Part shown: piece by piece, positions 4,668 to 33,559 of the stretch | Layout of the letters: each line of letters begins with the position of its first letter | Numbering within the stretch: the stretch's first letter is position 1 | From: Candidatus Cloacimonadota bacterium | Lineage (GTDB): Bacteria > Cloacimonadota > Cloacimonadia > Cloacimonadales > WRIO01 | DNA: 46,761 bases | Reading direction: 5' to 3' | NCBI GenBank assembly: GCA_029553545.1 | Contig: JAKPKU010000209.1 | Span: 1 to 46,761 of the forward strand | Made by a program: the position numbers and the translations under genes | The notes under the pieces: model-generated | What the model was told of the DNA's origin: nothing | Databases searched by the model: none | Seen by the model: only the letters and a program-made list of their open reading frames with translations

Positions 4668-6302
<1,635 letters not shown>

Positions 6303-6335
6303 TTAAATATCCTCCATTATTATTTATTCTTTAAT

Positions 6336-6362
6336 TTAGCAATTAACATTACTGAGTGCTAA
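6336..6362 (-). promoter_or_regulatory. CIRCE-like HrcA operator
   Basis: The 27-base element has the right arm GAGTGCTAA matching the CIRCE consensus exactly. The left arm is TTAGCAATT against consensus TTAGCACTC, and the spacer is exactly 9 bases. It lies 34 bases upstream of the groEL ATG, and the predicted transcription start falls inside it. The arms are asymmetric, so HrcA binding may be weaker than normal. Confidence 0.8.
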
Positions 6363-6388
6363 TTATAATATAATACAAAAACTGTCAA
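6362..6388 (-). promoter_or_regulatory. groEL promoter
   Basis: Minus-strand TTGACA (6383-6388) and TATAAT (6362-6367) are both exact consensus hexamers, with a rather short 15-base spacer. The -10 box touches the CIRCE element, the usual arrangement for repression. Confidence 0.65.
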
Positions 6389-6444
6389 ATGAAAAATTCT
6401 TTTTTTGACTTTTTTCTTTTTTATCTAAAAAACAGTGATATCGC

Positions 6445-7584
6445 TTATAAAAATAGCTTTGCAACTAAGGATTTTTTGATACTGACTGCGTGTATTGGGC
6501 AAAGCTCGTGGCAACACATACATTTTATACATTTTGCTTTGTCCAGAACAGGCTTTTGGTCATCCTTATCAAGTCTCAACGCTTTAACTGGGCAGCTTTG
6601 CACACAAACGCCGCATCTAATACAAGCATCACCAAAGCTTGGATAGTAATCAAAAAAGCGGTTAAAGAACTTTTTAAGAGCTGCTGGAAGCGAATCAAGA
6701 AAACGTTTTCTAAAGATAACTTCTTTGATTGCAACGTCAGTCAGAATCTCGTCTTTGAATGCTTCCTCTATCTGGATATCTTCAATCTTCAAGTCTAAGC
6801 TATTTAAGAGATGCTTTATATATTCGATCTGCTCGATTTTAAAGCCCATCATTCTGCTGGCAGCATAGTCATTTACAGGAGCTATTTCTGAGATAAAAAG
6901 TCGATTAAATGCGCGTGGTTTACCTGCAGAAGGTCCTTCGCCTTCCATGCCCACGATGCCATCCAAAACGTTAAATAGAACTTTGTCTTTGATGTGCAGA
7001 TAAACATTGGTAATAACCTGCGCAAAGTCTTTTGGTTGAGGGAATTGACGGTGCAACTCTGATTTATAAAGACCAGGGATCAAGCCATAGAAGTTTTTTA
7101 CACAGCCTGTATAAAGCATTAGACTATGAGTTTTCATTTTAGCGAGATTAATGATGCCATCGACTTCGTATATCAGCTTTTCAAAGTGGTATTCAGTGCC
7201 ATTTATTTGTTTTGTGATAATGCCGTTTTTACCAAAGTTGACAAGCTCTACTTTATGTCTTTTACATACTTCACCAAATCCAGTTGCTTTCCAGACAGAT
7301 TCAGCGGTAACAATACCGCCAGGGCTATCACCCACGACAACTTTTTTATCAAGTTCTTTCAAATAGATAATCATTGCCTCGAGAATAGCGGGATGAGTTG
7401 TCACAGCCTTATTAGGGTGATGTGCACCGAGCATATTTGGTTTTAAAAGAATGTATTGTGTCTTTTCTAACTTCGTTTTAAAGGGTTCGAGCTCGAATAT
7501 TTCTCTATAATACTCGAGAATTTGCTCGACATTATACTCATTAATAGCTTTTATATATACTTTAGAATTTATAGGGGTATTCAT
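6445..7584 (-). CDS. DUF362 domain protein with C-terminal 2x[4Fe-4S] ferredoxin domain
   Basis: The N-terminal 280 residues match the DUF362 type, with QYILLKPNMLG, the following HPNKAVTTHP and VVGDSPGG. The C-terminus has two CxxCxxCxxxCP clusters (CIRCGVCVQSCP near 318 and CIKCMCCHELCP near 349), the pattern of a bacterial-type dicluster ferredoxin. It is presumably a cytoplasmic iron-sulfur electron-transfer protein; the biological role of DUF362 proteins is not settled. The start overlaps the mtnA reading frame by 23 bases, so it is probably the last gene of the long rho-mutS run. Confidence 0.85.
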   Translation of the reverse strand: MNTPINSKVYIKAINEYNVEQILEYYREIFELEPFKTKLEKTQYILLKPNMLGAHHPNKAVTTHPAILEAMIIYLKELDKKVVVGDSPGGIVTAESVWKATGFGEVCKRHKVELVNFGKNGIITKQINGTEYHFEKLIYEVDGIINLAKMKTHSLMLYTGCVKNFYGLIPGLYKSELHRQFPQPKDFAQVITNVYLHIKDKVLFNVLDGIVGMEGEGPSAGKPRAFNRLFISEIAPVNDYAASRMMGFKIEQIEYIKHLLNSLDLKIEDIQIEEAFKDEILTDVAIKEVIFRKRFLDSLPAALKKFFNRFFDYYPSFGDACIRCGVCVQSCPVKALRLDKDDQKPVLDKAKCIKCMCCHELCPIHAVSIKKSLVAKLFL

Positions 7585-8563
7585 AGACTTTTTTCTCAGT
7601 AATTATTGCCTTGATAAGATGTGCAGGGCTCACATCGAAGGCTGGATTGAAGACATCGCATTCTACAGGCGCAGTTTGTTGCCCTCCAAACTGTCTAACT
7701 TCTGCTTTATTTCTCTCTTCGATTTTGATCAAAGAGCCATTATCTAATTCTCTATCAATTGTACTTTCAGGTGCCGCTATATAAAAGGGGATCTTGAAAT
7801 AGTCTGCCAGAATAGCGAGGTTCATTGTACCAATCTTATTGGCGGTATCTCCATTTTTACATATCCTGTCAGCGCCTGCGATAATGCAATCTATCTTATG
7901 CTCTTTGATAGTGTGAGCCGCCATATTATCACTTATCAAAACTGCAGGTATGCCCATCTTTTGTAGTTCCCACATCGTCAATCTTGCGCCTTGTAAAAGC
8001 GGTCGTGTTTCATCGGCATAGACTTTTATTTGTCTTTCCTCAGCAATTCTGCCAATCACGCCCAAAGCTGTACCAAAGCCATAAGTAGCGAGAGCGCCTG
8101 TATTGCAATGAGTCAAAAAGCGTGTGTACTCTTTTGGTATATAGTCAAAGCCGTTCTGTGCCATAGCCTTGCTTGAATCATACTCATAATGAAAAAGTGA
8201 ATCGAGGTACTCATAAATAGCAAAGACAAGTTCTTCTTCTTTTGTCTTGGCAATGATCTCTTTTACCCCATTTAAGGCATGAAAGAGATTGACCGCGGTA
8301 GGTCGCGAGAGCTCAATTTCAGCTATTGCTTGGAGTAGCTTTTCTTTAAAATTACTATCTTTTTCAAACTCCATACTTGCCAACCAAGCCGCACCAGCTG
8401 CAGCCAGTCCTATAGCGGGTGCGCCCCTTATTCTAAGCGCTTTAATTGCCTCTATCATCTGTCTATAGTCTTTTATTTCAATACGTTTTTCTTGTAAAGG
8501 TAAAAGCGTTTGATCAATTATCATCATTGCAGTTTTTGATCTTAAAATACTGTAAATCTTCAT
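7562..8563 (-). CDS. mtnA: S-methyl-5-thioribose-1-phosphate isomerase family (aIF2B-like)
   Basis: 333 residues with the family motifs RGAPAIGLAAA, RPTAVNLFHAL, THCNTGALATYGFGTALGV (with the catalytic Cys), YADETRPLLQGARLT and GADRICKNGDTANKIGT (with the catalytic Asp). The end, DVFNPAFDVSPAHLI, is also typical. The family converts methylthioribose-1-phosphate to the ribulose form in methionine salvage. Some members act on ribose-1,5-bisphosphate or 5-deoxyribose-1-phosphate, and no other salvage gene is nearby to decide. The ATG has GGAGAAGTAG just upstream and lies 14 bases after mutS. Confidence 0.9.
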   Translation of the reverse strand: MKIYSILRSKTAMMIIDQTLLPLQEKRIEIKDYRQMIEAIKALRIRGAPAIGLAAAGAAWLASMEFEKDSNFKEKLLQAIAEIELSRPTAVNLFHALNGVKEIIAKTKEEELVFAIYEYLDSLFHYEYDSSKAMAQNGFDYIPKEYTRFLTHCNTGALATYGFGTALGVIGRIAEERQIKVYADETRPLLQGARLTMWELQKMGIPAVLISDNMAAHTIKEHKIDCIIAGADRICKNGDTANKIGTMNLAILADYFKIPFYIAAPESTIDRELDNGSLIKIEERNKAEVRQFGGQQTAPVECDVFNPAFDVSPAHLIKAIITEKKVYEYPYKF

Positions 8564-8577
8564 CTACTTCTCCAATA

Positions 8578-11226
8578 CTATTCTTCTTCGAGTAAAAGAT
8601 TTTTCAGGTCATTTAGTCTTTGTAAAGCTTGTAAAGGCGAAAGCTCTTCGATATCCATGTCTAAGATGATATCTTTCAAATCTTGAAGCTTTTTATCTTT
8701 TTCTTCTGTCTCTTCAACTATTAGATCAAAGAGATTAAGTTGGTCATTCTGATTGAGCGATTTCTTGATTCTGGCAGTCAACCCTTGAGGGCTGAGCTCG
8801 ATAGCTTCGAGGTTTTTCAAGATTTGTCTTGCTCTATTAATTACTTTTTGAGGAACACCAGCCAGCCTTGCTACTTGTATTCCATAGCTTTGATCAGCCC
8901 CACCACGTTCGACTTTTCTTAAGAAGATAAGCTGGTCATTCCATTCACGTATGGTGATATTAAAATTCTTTACTCCTGGTAAGATGTTTTCCAGTTCAGT
9001 CAGCTCATGATAATGCGTCGCAAATAGTGTCTTCGCATTTATCTTTGGGTTATTATGAATATATTCAACGATAGACCAGGCGAGAGAAAGGCCATCAAAA
9101 GTGCTGGTTCCTCTGCCAATTTCATCAAGTAGAATTAGAGAATTTGGCGTTGCAGACTGCAGAATATTGGCAGTCTCAATCATTTCTACTAAAAATGTTG
9201 ATTGTCCTTGAGCAAGATTATCAGAGGCACCGACTCTGGTAAAAAGCTTGTCAAAAATAGGGATATTAGCGCTTGTACAAGGCACATATGAGCCCATTTG
9301 AGCCATGATAGCAATCAAGCCTATTTGCCTCAAATAAGTTGACTTTCCAGCCATATTAGGACCTGTAATCAGTGCTATTTTATAATTGTCATCATCCAAT
9401 TTCACATCATTTGGAATAAACTGTTCGTCTTTGAGTAGCTTTTCTATGACGGGATGGCGGCAATCCTGTAGATCTAAGAGCCCTTCATCATTAAAATGGG
9501 GTCGATTATATCTATTTTGATGAGCGATAAAGGCAAAGTTCGACAAGACATCAAGCTTGGCAACCACAGTGATAAAACTCTGTATCAAGGGGACCTTTTC
9601 AGACAATTCAGCACGCAGCTTTACAAAAATCTCATGCTCAAGGTTCTTAATCCTCTCTTCAGCGCCAAGCACACGCGATTCATGCTCTTTTAATTGTGGC
9701 GAAATATAACGCTCCGCATTTACCAGGGTTTGCTTAGCAATATAGTATTCAGGGACTTTTTCTTTATGTTGTTTGGTAATCTCGATATAATAACCAAAAA
9801 CCTTATTGAAACCGACTTTTAGGGTTGGGATGCCTGTTTTATGTTTTTCAGATTCTTCAAGCCTTGCAATCCATCCTTTACCATCACGACTGATCATTCT
9901 TAACTCATCAAGTTCATCATGAATACTGCTATTTATAATATTCCCCTCTGTAATAGTCAGAGGCGGGCTTTCCACAATAAATCTATTGATCTTTTCAACA
10001 ATATCAGAGTAGTTTTGAATACTTTGCTGAAGCTCTTTTATCAGCTCACTATCAAACTGATCTAATAGTTGATAAATCACGGGAGCTGTTTGCAAGTAAG
10101 CAGCCAAAACATTTAGGTCACGTGCATTTGCTCTCTGAGTAGAGAGGCGCGTGATAATACGACTCAAGTCTCCAATCTCACACAAGATATCTCTTAAATC
10201 TCTGGTATAAGCGATATTGTTTTTAAAAGACTCAACTGCATCGAGACGCATACCAATTAAGACTTTATCCATCAATGGGTACTGCAAATAATTAGTCAGT
10301 AATCTAGCACCCATTGGCGTTTTTGTTTCATCTATAACCGACATGAGACTTGCTTCGCGGTCATTTGTCCTCATGGAGCGGAATAGTTCAAGGTTTCTTC
10401 TTGTCACCTCATCAATTTGCATGTAAATATCTAAAGAGTAATATTGAATTGTATTAATATAAGATAAATCCTCAGTTCTCAGTGATTTAATATAACTCAA
10501 AGCAACGGCAACAGCTATTGCCCCGCTCTTTTTATCTTGCATACCAAGGCTTTCCAGGGTGTAAACATTAAAATGTTCTTTGATCAATTTCTTTGCTTCA
10601 TTGTACTCATAATGCCAAGTATCGTAGATAGTTATAGCAGGATGATGGTCAAGTGCAAGTTCTTCAATTATCTTTTTATAGTCTTCATTTTTGACGATTA
10701 TTTCTTTAGGACCTGTTTTTAAAACTTCATCTCTGAGCATCTCATGGCTAAATTCTGTATATCTAAAATCAGCAGTGGACACATCCAGACAAGCATAGCC
10801 GATTTTATTTTTATTCTTATCCCAATGAACACAAGCCAAAAAGAGATTGTCCTTATGCTGAATGAATTTCTCATCTAAAATGGCGCCAGGAGTAATAATC
10901 TCAACGATTTCTCGCTTAACTAAACCTTTGGCAAATTTTGGGTCTTCGACTTGATCAACGATGACGACTTTTCTCCCACTTTGGACTAATTTATCTAAAT
11001 AATTATCGAGTGCATGATGAGGAAAGCCTGCCAAGCAAGGCGAGTTTTCATCGCTTTTATTTCTTTTAGTAAGAGTGATACCCAATATCTTAGAGGCAGT
11101 TTTAGCATCCTCATCAAAAGTCTCAAAAAAATCACCCATTCTAAAGAGGATTATTTTATCTTGATGCTTCTCTTTTATTTGGTTGTACTGTTGCATTAAT
11201 GGGGTAACTTTTTGTGTGTTTGACAT
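8578..11226 (-). CDS. mutS: DNA mismatch repair protein MutS
   Basis: 882 residues, a normal MutS length. The mismatch-reading Phe-x-Glu motif is F33-F-E35 in MGDFFETF (Phe for the usual Tyr in the middle). The ATPase domain has Walker A GPNMAGKST, TRVGASDNLAQGQSTF and Walker B LLDEIGRGTSTFDG, with FATHYHEL after it. The clamp-lever and connector regions are complete. MutS scans DNA for mismatches and passes the signal to MutL, which is not encoded here. The start codon has AGGATTAATCTAT before it and lies 21 bases after the SPOR gene. Confidence 0.98.
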   Translation of the reverse strand: MSNTQKVTPLMQQYNQIKEKHQDKIILFRMGDFFETFDEDAKTASKILGITLTKRNKSDENSPCLAGFPHHALDNYLDKLVQSGRKVVIVDQVEDPKFAKGLVKREIVEIITPGAILDEKFIQHKDNLFLACVHWDKNKNKIGYACLDVSTADFRYTEFSHEMLRDEVLKTGPKEIIVKNEDYKKIIEELALDHHPAITIYDTWHYEYNEAKKLIKEHFNVYTLESLGMQDKKSGAIAVAVALSYIKSLRTEDLSYINTIQYYSLDIYMQIDEVTRRNLELFRSMRTNDREASLMSVIDETKTPMGARLLTNYLQYPLMDKVLIGMRLDAVESFKNNIAYTRDLRDILCEIGDLSRIITRLSTQRANARDLNVLAAYLQTAPVIYQLLDQFDSELIKELQQSIQNYSDIVEKINRFIVESPPLTITEGNIINSSIHDELDELRMISRDGKGWIARLEESEKHKTGIPTLKVGFNKVFGYYIEITKQHKEKVPEYYIAKQTLVNAERYISPQLKEHESRVLGAEERIKNLEHEIFVKLRAELSEKVPLIQSFITVVAKLDVLSNFAFIAHQNRYNRPHFNDEGLLDLQDCRHPVIEKLLKDEQFIPNDVKLDDDNYKIALITGPNMAGKSTYLRQIGLIAIMAQMGSYVPCTSANIPIFDKLFTRVGASDNLAQGQSTFLVEMIETANILQSATPNSLILLDEIGRGTSTFDGLSLAWSIVEYIHNNPKINAKTLFATHYHELTELENILPGVKNFNITIREWNDQLIFLRKVERGGADQSYGIQVARLAGVPQKVINRARQILKNLEAIELSPQGLTARIKKSLNQNDQLNLFDLIVEETEEKDKKLQDLKDIILDMDIEELSPLQALQRLNDLKNLLLEEE

Positions 11227-29452: not shown

Positions 29453-32227
29453 CTATTCTTTAATCTTTACCTTACCACCATCTATAAATGACTCAAATTT
29501 CATCACTTTAGGCATCAATTCGAATTCGAGAGAATAAGATTCATCATCAACTACTTCAATTTCTTTTATATCATCCACAAACTCATAGGTCTGAGCATCT
29601 GCAGACTTTAAAGGGAAAACTTGCCAAGTGCCTGCATGTAATTGATTAAAGATTATCTGCCCATTTTGATCTGTCTTTTTGATTATCTTGGTGTCTTTAT
29701 TCTGCAAAACAAAATAAATATCTTTAAGCTTTATCTTCCCATTATTCGCCAAAAATACGCCTTCGCCAGCTGTTGGTGAGACTTCTCTCTGGCTTACTTT
29801 TATATGAATACTTGCGGGGTTGATTAAATTGTACTTTTTAGTGATCTTCTCTTTTTTCTCTACTCGAACTGTATCAGGCAGCTGAGGATAAAGGAGCTGT
29901 TCTCTACCATTATTAATTGCTGTTAAAAGGTAATCTCCTTGATTGATATTCAAAAACTCTGCTCGCCCATTTTTATTAGTTAAACCATACATCCCATTTG
30001 CGTGAATTAATAGATTATTAACAGGATTATTTGTATATGGATCAAAGACTTCAACAATCAGATCTGAGTGATGGCTCTTAGCTGCCACTGGCATATTCAA
30101 AGGCATTGTATATTCCAAAGAAACAGAGTATCGGTTTAGCTCATGATTATTCAAATATTCATAGTGCTTTGCAGAGAGGGTCAAAGTATGCTTATGATAA
30201 AAGGCATAACTGAGATTCCCTTCCCCAATAATCATATCCTGCCATGCATTCCCCTGATAATGGTAATTCTGCAATGATGCGGACATTCTTAGTTTTTGAT
30301 AAATCTTGGTTTCTGCAGAAATAAACTGGCTTTGATTAGTTTTGTTTTCCATACGAGTTGTTTTTGAGTCTGCGACAAAGATAAACCAGTCTCGATAGAA
30401 ATACCGCATATTAACATGTAAAACATCTTCTATTTTCTTGCTGTGATTGTAGTTATAGTCATGTTTACCTGCCAAAGCCTCTGCATAGAAATTATTTAAA
30501 TCAAATGCGATACCTGACAGCAGCAGTTTATCTTCAACATTATAGGTTTGTTGGCTACTTTCATACCAATAATAGCTATAATTAGCAATAGCATACAACG
30601 ATTTCCAGATCTTGACTTTTGGCTTTAGATAGTGAGAGTTGTATACTTGATTATAGGGGTATGACCAAGTGTAATTAGATTTTTCATTGCTGTATCTAAA
30701 CCCAGCCAGGAAGGCAAAATCATTTTCAAATCTATTAGATAAGTTTGCTTCAAATGTTTTTCGGAAATCATATTCTCCATCAATTTTCTTTGCCTGATAA
30801 AAATGCTTTAATTCTACAAAAGTACTTGGCAAAGAATAGGTCAATCGATTATAAATCAAGGGCTCAGCAAAATTAAACTCATCATTAGTATTATTATTTT
30901 TATACCACAAGAGCTCATTATTAATCTTTAAAGACGGTGTCAAAGCAAGACATAAATTTGTTGACAGTTTATCATTGTCATTAGGGCTATTAGTGTCTTT
31001 GCCGATTATAGAATTAGTGCTAAAATCTTTTCTTTTAGCCTGAAAGTGTAAAGAAAAGAGGCTATTATTCTCACTCAAAATATAATCCTTATCTCTAAGA
31101 AAAGTATAAGAGATAGTAGAATATGTCGCCTTTTCGCGGTAATAATCTTTCACCAGTTGGTATGAGAACATTGATCTATTTGGAAAAACATTAATATCAA
31201 AGCCCTGCCCATAAAGGTTTCCTAATAAAACATTCTTTTGAAAGTTTGCCTTACCAGATGTGCTGGCAATCAAATTATTACTAAAACTCACTGCATATTC
31301 ATCATGATCTGTCCAAGAATTTAAAAATCTACCATTCTGTTTCTTAAAATACCAAGAGACAAATGTATCAGGTTTTTTATCTCTATCATAAAGGTATCCA
31401 TAGCCCCAGAAACTCAACCAATGCTCCCATTCATCCTCTTCGGGGTAATTATTAAGCTTCACTTTATTAGATACATAAGCAGGGATCTTATGAAATCTTT
31501 GCAAGTCTGGTTGATAAAGTGAATAATAAGGCAAATATCTGTCAATATTGAGTTTATGTGAGCTTAAAGAGTCAGGATATATATACTTATAATCAATATC
31601 AATCTTGGCATTAATAAACTTGTCCATCAGCATAAAAGAGTCTGTTTTAAACTGCAGAGTATCTGCCTCTCCTGCCTTCAAATAAAACTGTTTTGTTTGT
31701 ATTTTTGCCCCATTAATAAGCAAAATATCACCAATACACGGGATATTACTATCATTATCAAGCACGAGCGCCAAAGTGCTATTACCGTCGTCATACAATG
31801 GCGAATTACCTGTATTAAGCCAGGCTTGAAAGTTGGTATATGGCTTAATATTTATTTTAATAAACTCACGAAATACTTCTTCTCCTTGGCTATCTCTCAA
31901 AATAAAAGGTAAAAGAAATGACTGTAATTGCTGAGTATTTTCAACTAAGAAAGTGTAATATAAGAGCTTTTCTTCATTTGCCTTAAAATCAAGATCTTGC
32001 AGTGGACTAATAACTGTGAATGATTCGCTGGGTATAAAGTCAGGTACAGCAGATACTTGATAATCTTTTAGATTTTGAATTTTAAGTGCTAAAACGCTTA
32101 CCTTATTGATATCAAAAAATACATCATCAGCAACGGATAGTTTAAAATCTGCAGCAAAAGCATTCCCCGCTAATAATAGCGTTATTAAAGCTAATAGCTT
32201 AATTTTGAATATTAAATTGGGAGCCAA
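29453..32227 (-). CDS. Large outer-membrane beta-barrel, usher-like
   Basis: About 924 residues from TTG 32227, with a signal peptide LLALITLLLAGNAFA. Two Ig-like periplasmic regions come first (about 30-230), then about 500 residues of alternating amphipathic strands rich in Tyr, Asn and aromatic girdle residues, e.g. LKPKVKIWKSLYAIANYSYY. Two small carboxypeptidase-regulatory-like domains end it (DLIVEVFDPYTNNPVNNLLI with GLTNKNGRAEFLNINQGDYLL, then NQNGQIIFNQL style). The layout of barrel plus C-terminal domains downstream of a chaperone and a secreted subunit resembles a fimbrial usher, although no FimD signature is clear. The TTG start is uncertain: AAGG is three bases away, and an ATG at 32266 lies deeper inside the chaperone gene. 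Confidence 0.65.
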   Translation of the reverse strand: MAPNLIFKIKLLALITLLLAGNAFAADFKLSVADDVFFDINKVSVLALKIQNLKDYQVSAVPDFIPSESFTVISPLQDLDFKANEEKLLYYTFLVENTQQLQSFLLPFILRDSQGEEVFREFIKINIKPYTNFQAWLNTGNSPLYDDGNSTLALVLDNDSNIPCIGDILLINGAKIQTKQFYLKAGEADTLQFKTDSFMLMDKFINAKIDIDYKYIYPDSLSSHKLNIDRYLPYYSLYQPDLQRFHKIPAYVSNKVKLNNYPEEDEWEHWLSFWGYGYLYDRDKKPDTFVSWYFKKQNGRFLNSWTDHDEYAVSFSNNLIASTSGKANFQKNVLLGNLYGQGFDINVFPNRSMFSYQLVKDYYREKATYSTISYTFLRDKDYILSENNSLFSLHFQAKRKDFSTNSIIGKDTNSPNDNDKLSTNLCLALTPSLKINNELLWYKNNNTNDEFNFAEPLIYNRLTYSLPSTFVELKHFYQAKKIDGEYDFRKTFEANLSNRFENDFAFLAGFRYSNEKSNYTWSYPYNQVYNSHYLKPKVKIWKSLYAIANYSYYWYESSQQTYNVEDKLLLSGIAFDLNNFYAEALAGKHDYNYNHSKKIEDVLHVNMRYFYRDWFIFVADSKTTRMENKTNQSQFISAETKIYQKLRMSASLQNYHYQGNAWQDMIIGEGNLSYAFYHKHTLTLSAKHYEYLNNHELNRYSVSLEYTMPLNMPVAAKSHHSDLIVEVFDPYTNNPVNNLLIHANGMYGLTNKNGRAEFLNINQGDYLLTAINNGREQLLYPQLPDTVRVEKKEKITKKYNLINPASIHIKVSQREVSPTAGEGVFLANNGKIKLKDIYFVLQNKDTKIIKKTDQNGQIIFNQLHAGTWQVFPLKSADAQTYEFVDDIKEIEVVDDESYSLEFELMPKVMKFESFIDGGKVKIKE

Positions 32228-32972
32228 ACACCTTGTTTTCTCCACAATCCACAACGCCAACAACATAGTAATTCTTTTTATTTAGGGAGACAAGCGGTAT
32301 TTTGTATGCATGAGAGGTCTGTGGGTACAGCTTATGTTTATTTGCATTAAACACACCTACTTTTGTACCATCAGAGTCATATAATTCAACCCATACATTT
32401 GGGTTAGCCCATCGTTCTCCAGTGTTTTTTATGTTTAATATCAGCTCATTTGTGCTTTTCTTAAATTCTGCCCCTTCGAATAGAATATTATACTGTCCAG
32501 TATCTCCTATTTGAGTGATAGACTGTATTGCATAGCGTTGATTAACTTGCAATTTCAGCTCATTATTTTTGGCAACTTCATAACCGAGCCCCCCTTCTTC
32601 AATAAAGAGAATTGACCAATAAGATCCGATCAAGTCTTCATTTTCAGGTACTTTGACGCTATATGAAAAGTTTACTTTGCTCTTTGCTGCAATATTTATT
32701 TCTTGTGTGGCAAAGCTTATCCAATTGGCATTTGATCGGGACAATTTTCCAGGCTCAATAAACCAGATATTTCCTTCCGCATTATAGGCATAGTCAGCTT
32801 GTTTGATATTTAGGGTGAGTTTTTCATTTCCATGATTAGTAATAAGAATTTCTCTGGTAATTCTATCTCCACGATTCATCACATTATAGTGAGTCAGGTC
32901 GCCAGTTACAGACCAATCAGCAAAGAGAGAAAAGCTTAATACAGAAATTAAGACAAAAACAAATAATCTCAT
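32199..32972 (-). CDS. PapD-like/DUF916-like periplasmic chaperone
   Basis: 257 residues with a signal peptide (MRLFVFVLISVLSFSLFA). The first Ig-like domain carries the chaperone pattern: RITREILITNHGNEKLTLNI, WISFATQEINIAAKSKVNF and SYSVKVPENEDLIGSYWSI. A second Ig domain contains EFKKSTNELILNIKNTGERW. This matches the donor-strand chaperone style of PapD relatives and of DUF916 proteins, although at low similarity. It would hold the secreted subunit encoded four bases upstream and pass it to the barrel protein, whose reading frame overlaps its 3' end by about 30 bases. Confidence 0.65.
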   Translation of the reverse strand: MRLFVFVLISVLSFSLFADWSVTGDLTHYNVMNRGDRITREILITNHGNEKLTLNIKQADYAYNAEGNIWFIEPGKLSRSNANWISFATQEINIAAKSKVNFSYSVKVPENEDLIGSYWSILFIEEGGLGYEVAKNNELKLQVNQRYAIQSITQIGDTGQYNILFEGAEFKKSTNELILNIKNTGERWANPNVWVELYDSDGTKVGVFNANKHKLYPQTSHAYKIPLVSLNKKNYYVVGVVDCGENKVFGSQFNIQN

Positions 32973-32975
32973 CTT

Positions 32976-33446
32976 TTAATCCATGATTGTAAAAGTAACA
33001 ACTCTATTTTCATTAACAGAAACAGGCGCACCGATATTTGCATTTAAGCGATAGTAAAGCAATAAGTTCTTCTGATTAACATTACTAATATTTGTGATTA
33101 TTGGGCTTGGCGCAACAGAAAGAGGCACGTACCCTAAACTAATTGCATTTGCAGGTGCATCGGCTTTTACTTCTAAGGTCGTATGTTCAGGCATATTTTG
33201 ATTCAATTGAGCTACCAACTGTTTGAAGTTGCCTGTGGACACAATGCTATACGTACTATTGAGCACAACAGGGTCATACAACCTTTGTGTATTACCAGAA
33301 TAAGCCAGATTCATTGACAGATTAGCTTCTTCTAACACAATATGTTGGATATCAGGCACATTAAAATGCACTATTGTACTGGCGCTTCTATTTGCCAGCA
33401 ATAATACAGCATGCAAGCACAAAATAATAATAATAATTCTTTTCAT
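32976..33446 (-). CDS. Secreted all-beta subunit, candidate pilus-like protein
   Basis: 156 residues with a signal peptide (MKRIIIIILCLHAVLLLANR). The rest is predicted beta: a STYSIVSTGNFKQLVAQLN strand pair, a MPEHTTLEVKADAPANAISLG segment and a final strand VSVNENRVVTFTIMD. The pattern of short repeated strands and the T-I-x-D end resembles single-domain structural subunits that need a chaperone. Strong ribosome site AGGAGGATAAG, first gene of the subunit-chaperone-barrel set, with a terminator (33504-33537) separating it from cheW. It is not a recognised family to me; the call rests on context and on fold-like features. Confidence 0.5.
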   Translation of the reverse strand: MKRIIIIILCLHAVLLLANRSASTIVHFNVPDIQHIVLEEANLSMNLAYSGNTQRLYDPVVLNSTYSIVSTGNFKQLVAQLNQNMPEHTTLEVKADAPANAISLGYVPLSVAPSPIITNISNVNQKNLLLYYRLNANIGAPVSVNENRVVTFTIMD

Positions 33447-33503: not shown

Positions 33504-33537
33504 AAAAATTGCTTCGCTAATTAATGTAGCGAAGCAA
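33504..33537 (-). terminator. Rho-independent terminator of the chemotaxis-like operon
   Basis: An 11-bp stem TTGCTTCGCTA / TAGCGAAGCAA (33509-33537) with a 7-base loop and five T on the minus strand, 22 bases after the cheW stop codon. Confidence 0.9.
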
Positions 33538-33559
33538 TAAAACATTTATCACTCAGAAA

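Follow-up and report, generated by a model that had tools for sequence, protein, structure and literature searches.

Three consecutive genes on the minus strand of a 46,761-nucleotide stretch of DNA from Candidatus Cloacimonadota bacterium (contig JAKPKU010000209.1 of assembly GCA_029553545.1; the whole stretch is hereafter the window) probably encode a divergent, plug-less chaperone-usher-like pathway that would build a surface fibre by strand complementation. What is well supported is that the cassette has three co-conserved secreted components, that one of them is a WxLIP-family protein with two immunoglobulin-like (Ig) domains, and that another is an usher-like barrel without a plug. The subunit gene comes first, followed by the chaperone gene and then by that of the large protein, and all three products have N-termini that look by eye like signal peptides (MKRIIIIILCLHAVLLLA; MRLFVFVLISVLSFSLFA; IKLLALITLLLAGNAFA), as had been noticed in a preliminary description of the window made from its letters alone. 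That description proposed an unusual chaperone-usher-like operon without clear FimD signatures, a proposal now borne out by conserved gene order and co-occurrence, by the usher-like barrel and by its FimD/PapC-type fold. The large gene overlaps the 3' end of the chaperone gene, and where it starts is uncertain, the candidates ranging from the ATG at 32266 to a TTG in the same frame at about 32227. The features, with lengths in amino acids (aa), are as follows; L054 is a central homologue of the large protein.

32976..33446, minus strand: small secreted subunit P0003 of family A, an open reading frame of 156 aa
32199..32972, minus strand: candidate periplasmic chaperone P0002, 257 aa, with a match to the WxLIP (DUF916-DUF3324) family
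29453..32266, minus strand: usher-like outer-membrane protein P0001, an open frame of 937 aa
31532..32149, minus strand: predicted N-terminal Ig-like pair of P0001, residues about 40-245, from models of the window protein and L054
30080..31495, minus strand: predicted barrel of P0001, residues about 258-729, with 26 strand segments mapped from the strands of the L054 model
29498..30067, minus strand: two predicted C-terminal prealbumin-like domains of P0001, residues about 734-923, from Pfam SpaA and CarboxypepD_reg and the L054 model

Co-conservation of the cassette is well supported. When the chaperone profile and the large-protein profile were each run over 125 Cloacimonadota genomes, strong chaperone matches appeared in eight, and a full-length large protein in seven of these eight and in no other; the exception is the 64%-complete genome G003, where a different gene follows the chaperone on a 4.4-kb contig. 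Because the same gene order recurs in other Cloacimonadota, at chaperone identities of 22-68%, and in about ten phyla, the trio is not a chance effect. As a lone query the window chaperone gave zero matches in a first scan of genome contigs, and it was an alignment of five relatives, used as the query, that opened the family. A search seeded with chaperones alone yielded 41 loci from Cloacimonadota, Ignavibacteria, Bacteroidota, KSB1, Spirochaetes, Planctomycetota, Verrucomicrobia, Armatimonadetes, Ozemobacter, and Delta- and Gammaproteobacteria (these labels are record titles, mostly of metagenome-assembled genomes, and individual assignments may be wrong). In 39 of the 41 the chaperone is immediately followed by the large protein, encoded on the same strand, a count that includes a few large proteins truncated where the contig stops or interrupted by a frame break; the two exceptions are L088, with a convergent large protein in two pieces, and L092, the G003 locus, with none. 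It also directly follows the chaperone in all 15 further strong relatives, which came from the order to which L075 belongs and from the phylum of L054, and small secreted subunits adjoin the chaperone-usher pair in almost all loci. The three-gene order thus holds in relatives, and the system that the preliminary description had placed in this one phylum extends to about ten. Carriers usually have one copy per genome and are infrequent (a strong match in about 14 of 393 sampled genomes from the order of L075 and in 4 of 345 from the phylum of L054). They include cultured Bacteroidota such as Tangfeifania diversioriginum DSM 27063 and Mariniphaga anaerophila DSM 26910.

Modelling identifies the large protein as an usher-like barrel without a plug, a fold that is computationally well supported. 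The AlphaFold2 (AF2) model of the window protein, from an 8-row alignment, is weak (pLDDT 57), with top PDB matches that are already FimD and PapC; because its barrel was poor, L054 (932 aa) was modelled instead from a 52-row alignment, reaching pLDDT 90.1. The L054 model consists of two Ig domains, a barrel and two prealbumin-like domains, the architecture that had been proposed for the window protein. Its barrel has 26 strand segments over residues 249-704, the longest loop being of about 15 residues, and every one of these strands has an aligned counterpart in the window protein; the model therefore predicts an outer-membrane barrel of usher size, for which 24 strands was the yardstick, the predicted number of strands being approximate. 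All of the top ten PDB matches to L054 are FimD or PapC (E 1e-14 to 1e-12, in alignments of some 760-820 columns), other barrels such as LptD, AlgE and porins matching at about 1e-7, and in profile comparison Pfam-Usher proteins align with the barrel and C-terminal region at P=4e-9, against 1e-3 for an LptD control. This control was taken from Pseudomonadota because LptD went undetected in 31 Cloacimonadota relatives, in which the Pfam model (PF04453) that matches in E. coli and Caulobacter found nothing, LptD being either absent there or too diverged. The two C-terminal domains sit where ushers have CTD1 and CTD2, with Pfam SpaA at E=2.4e-6 in the window protein and CarboxypepD_reg in 38 of 40 relatives, and NPCBM/FixG_C-type matches fall in the Ig-pair region of relatives. 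A pore-size barrel without a plug, accompanied by subunits without proven pilin homology, might also be expected of a dedicated export channel that secretes beta-proteins one by one, to be released in soluble form or attached at the surface, with the Ig protein acting as their export chaperone. We regard this as quite unlikely, since the top fold matches are polymerising ushers rather than export barrels, and since the subunits occur in sets and have a pilin-like build, with an N-terminal extension and a terminal strand.

By profile homology the candidate chaperone is related to WxLIP (DUF916-DUF3324) across both of its domains: a 45-member profile searched against the PDB matched Enterococcus faecium WxLIP (9i25, 9i1y) over both at E=3e-8, in keeping with the two-Ig chaperone, and with the 'DUF916-like' lead, of the preliminary description. 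Among the 45 members, Pfam WxLIP_PGBD matches in 26 and WxLIP_HBD in seven (E up to 1, and singly weak), and for none of the 45 scanned is a Pfam PapD match listed. Against PapD-type chaperones from genuine Pfam-Usher loci (alignment A11), the profile gives P=9e-6 without signal peptides, a weaker link than that to WxLIP, with subunit controls at P 0.3 or worse and probabilities of 0.1-0.2%. Part of this PapD-type signal is attributable to general Ig ancestry, because the Ig pair that belongs to the usher-like protein reaches 94% against the chaperone family. Conservation is strongest in the hairpin region (D60, G67, G75, R79-S-N-A and W84; alignment A6), and a second conserved strand, R-Y-[AG]-[IV]-Q, aligns with the R-x-S-I-P strand of archaic chaperones, the R-Y-x-I pattern of the G1 strand being common to this family and PapD-type chaperones. 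The idea that R79 is the counterpart of CsuC Arg89 was given up, as real archaic chaperones suggest a different position. WxLIP itself carries a C-terminal membrane helix, and in AF2 models its hairpin strand completes the WxL beta-sandwich in parallel (PMC10599100); the membrane helix is absent from the listed members of alignment A6, in which little or nothing follows the second Ig domain.

Two families of subunits are found beside the chaperone-usher pair, A (n=82) and B (n=26), the latter with about one member per locus, and the two are mutually related (81% in profile comparison). The window subunit, which its sequence pattern suggests is all-beta, joins family A through its counterpart in G001, and it is the only one at its locus; the absence of multiple subunits that had been remarked on thus holds for the window and not for its relatives, which have several, from two families. 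Family A proteins (alignment A9) have a core preceded by an N-terminal segment in which hydrophobic residues alternate and followed by a last strand of consensus TVTxTxTD that terminates 3-6 residues past a conserved Thr, and the C-terminal strand of the window subunit ends RVVTFTIMD. Neither family has a meaningful match in Pfam or the PDB, and the Pfam WxL model matches none of the 30 family A and 26 family B subunits tested. Homology of family A to pilins was considered and dropped, as an hhalign probability of 92% against archaic pilins falls to 2.7% without signal peptides. Because that similarity vanishes, the subunits may be read as pilins by position and form rather than by demonstrated homology.

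An alternative has to be weighed at this point, that the trio forms a WxL surface complex of diderm cells, in which the WxLIP-like protein would stay bound to the subunit permanently and the barrel would serve in the outer membrane as an anchor or a platform for display, with no polymer made. The significant WxLIP homology over both domains would suit such a complex, as would the single subunit in the window operon and the presence on some large proteins of SPOR (6 of 40 usher-like proteins; alignment A7, best E 2e-15) or, at the C-terminal end of the distant usher-like protein of L170, OmpA. SPOR and OmpA domains bind peptidoglycan, and we know of no usher with SPOR. Yet the chaperone family is without the C-terminal membrane helix of WxLIP (PMC10599100), its subunits have no Pfam WxL match, and several subunits of two families per locus, together with an usher-like barrel, suit fibre export better, so that we consider this alternative unlikely.

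Several results weigh against the chaperone-usher-like pathway that we favour. TM-scores of L054 against FimD/PapC are low (0.27-0.30 / 0.32-0.38). There is no plug in the L054 model, nor a barrel insertion of more than 35 residues in any of the 52 aligned members; with all 26 strands aligned, this means that the family is without the plug, one of the five domains of which known ushers consist (PMC8410936), and of the pore-size barrel with plug that had been envisaged, the modelled barrel stands and the plug does not. The usher N-terminal domain is likewise absent, the Ig pair being found in its place, and hhalign of this region against Pfam-Usher proteins gives 0.2%. The 45-member chaperone profile matches no PapD-type chain in the PDB at E up to 10, and in similarity to the chaperone family the Ig pair of the usher-like protein equals or surpasses PapD-type chaperones. 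Finally, without signal peptides the subunits score 2.7% against archaic and classical pilins, which is no sequence tie. It might still be supposed that the trio is a standard chaperone-usher operon of the archaic or alternative type that has diverged strongly, and thus a member of the known family, given the significant profile match between Pfam-Usher proteins and the barrel and C-terminal region, the weak CooC_C matches in 5 of 40 usher-like proteins, and the shared R-Y-x-I of the G1 strand. This we think highly improbable: the plug is missing, the N-terminal domains differ, the subunits have no demonstrable homology to pilins, and Pfam Usher (PF00577), which matched an E. coli control, has no match in the window protein or anywhere in the 125 Cloacimonadota genomes.

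By sequence, then, the cassette matches no described pilus family. It resembles the chaperone-usher pathway (FimC/FimD and PapD/PapC; archaic Csu; alternative ECP and CFA/I) in its set and order of genes for a subunit, a two-Ig chaperone and an outer-membrane barrel, in a barrel of about 24-26 strands with two C-terminal beta-domains, and in its top PDB folds and the profile match to Pfam-Usher proteins, but it differs in having no plug, in the Ig pair that replaces the usher N-terminal domain, in a chaperone nearer to WxLIP than to PapD, and in subunits unrelated by sequence. The archaic type has been listed in Proteobacteria, Cyanobacteria and Deinococcus-Thermus (PMC4654587), whereas the cassette occurs in phyla outside that listing. 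With the WxL clusters of Firmicutes it shares homology of the chaperone to WxLIP over both domains and a small, secreted, beta-rich partner, strand complementation being predicted between WxLIP and WxL (PMC10599100); unlike those clusters, it has neither a C-terminal membrane helix nor a WxL domain in its subunits, and an outer-membrane barrel gene belongs to it. Lacking a Pfam Usher match, a plug, an usher N-terminal domain and pilin homology on the chaperone-usher side, and a membrane helix and a WxL domain on the WxL side, it belongs under neither heading, while its mode of action is most likely that of a chaperone-usher pathway. No description of the cassette was found in open-access papers, so one may exist elsewhere. 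More tentatively, and with a little less than even confidence, we propose that this pairing of a plug-less usher with a WxLIP-family chaperone represents one more branch of chaperone-usher-like fibre assembly, with members in about ten diderm phyla. A locus of the same order in G009 (L028; G009:C128 615-7327) is perhaps another fibre system, with five small secreted proteins, a distant chaperone relative (E=1.6e-10) and an 888-aa protein ending in a CarboxypepD_reg domain; its subunits are DUF4402-like (one above the Pfam cut-off), and the 888-aa protein lies outside the usher-profile matches.

From these components we infer the fibre itself, along with chaperoning, strand exchange and a gating mechanism that does without a plug. 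Sec would export the subunit, and in the periplasm the two-Ig chaperone would bind it and lend it a beta-strand. The donor might be the conserved RSNAxW hairpin (in WxLIP-WxL, a hairpin strand is predicted to act as donor) or, in the manner of PapD-type chaperones, the G1-like RYxIQ strand. The chaperone-subunit complex would then dock on the large protein, probably at its N-terminal Ig pair and its C-terminal prealbumin domains, which could replace the docking roles of the N- and C-terminal domains of FimD. There, the N-terminal extension of the next subunit would displace the chaperone strand, and the growing fibre would thread through the wide barrel to the cell surface. The family B subunit that most relatives possess could be the cap or tip of such a fibre, and it is tempting to see in the Ig pair a candidate for closing a pore that has no plug.

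In the window the trio is flanked by cheA-cheW and a nucleotidyltransferase-like gene, a neighbourhood kept in the same-genus relative G001. A hairpin between cheW and the subunit gene, a pattern match only, suggests that the trio is a separate transcription unit:

33508..33538, minus strand: terminator-like hairpin with a 12-bp stem and a T-rich tail

Among relatives of the cassette, the window's own genome holds a second, diverged set at L050 (G000:C241:6000-24000; locus positions 5117-10136), with a 189-aa subunit, a 244-aa two-Ig protein, a 344-aa protein ending in FlgD_ig/Por_Secre_tail and an 880-aa usher-like protein. In two other Cloacimonadota, G023 and G117 (L012 10097-15043 and L027 10917-16004), the usher-like gene is directly followed by one for a large secreted protein of about 1650-1730 aa, repeat-rich and TPR-like by eye, which may be a further part of the system. 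In the phylum of L054, sets that are more distant (L168, L169 and L170) run from small secreted proteins, which terminate in GNYTxTxTYTLTAP, to a two-Ig protein and then an usher-like protein. Weaker chaperone matches in Bacteroidales (E 1e-17 to 1e-37) were left uncounted, as none of seven opened loci had a directly adjacent usher. A second, commoner class of WxLIP-like two-Ig proteins, in this same E range, is present in that order (L163, L164, L165, L166, L167 and L171); it often neighbours a secreted protein some 370-395 aa long and has no adjacent usher-like gene.

If the proposed pathway is real, bacteria of many mostly uncultured phyla, as well as the cultured Tangfeifania and Mariniphaga, would carry an adhesive-fibre pathway that goes unrecognised by the Pfam and NCBIfam models tested. 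It would follow that an usher can function without a plug, and that Ig domains can take over subunit docking from the usual usher N-terminal domain. For the WxLIP/WxL complex, which is poorly understood in lactobacilli and enterococci, there would be a mechanistic frame, that of a chaperone-like partner and a strand-complemented client. On the more tentative reading of a further branch, the Gram-positive WxL complex and the chaperone-usher pili of Gram-negative cells would be related strand-complementation systems.

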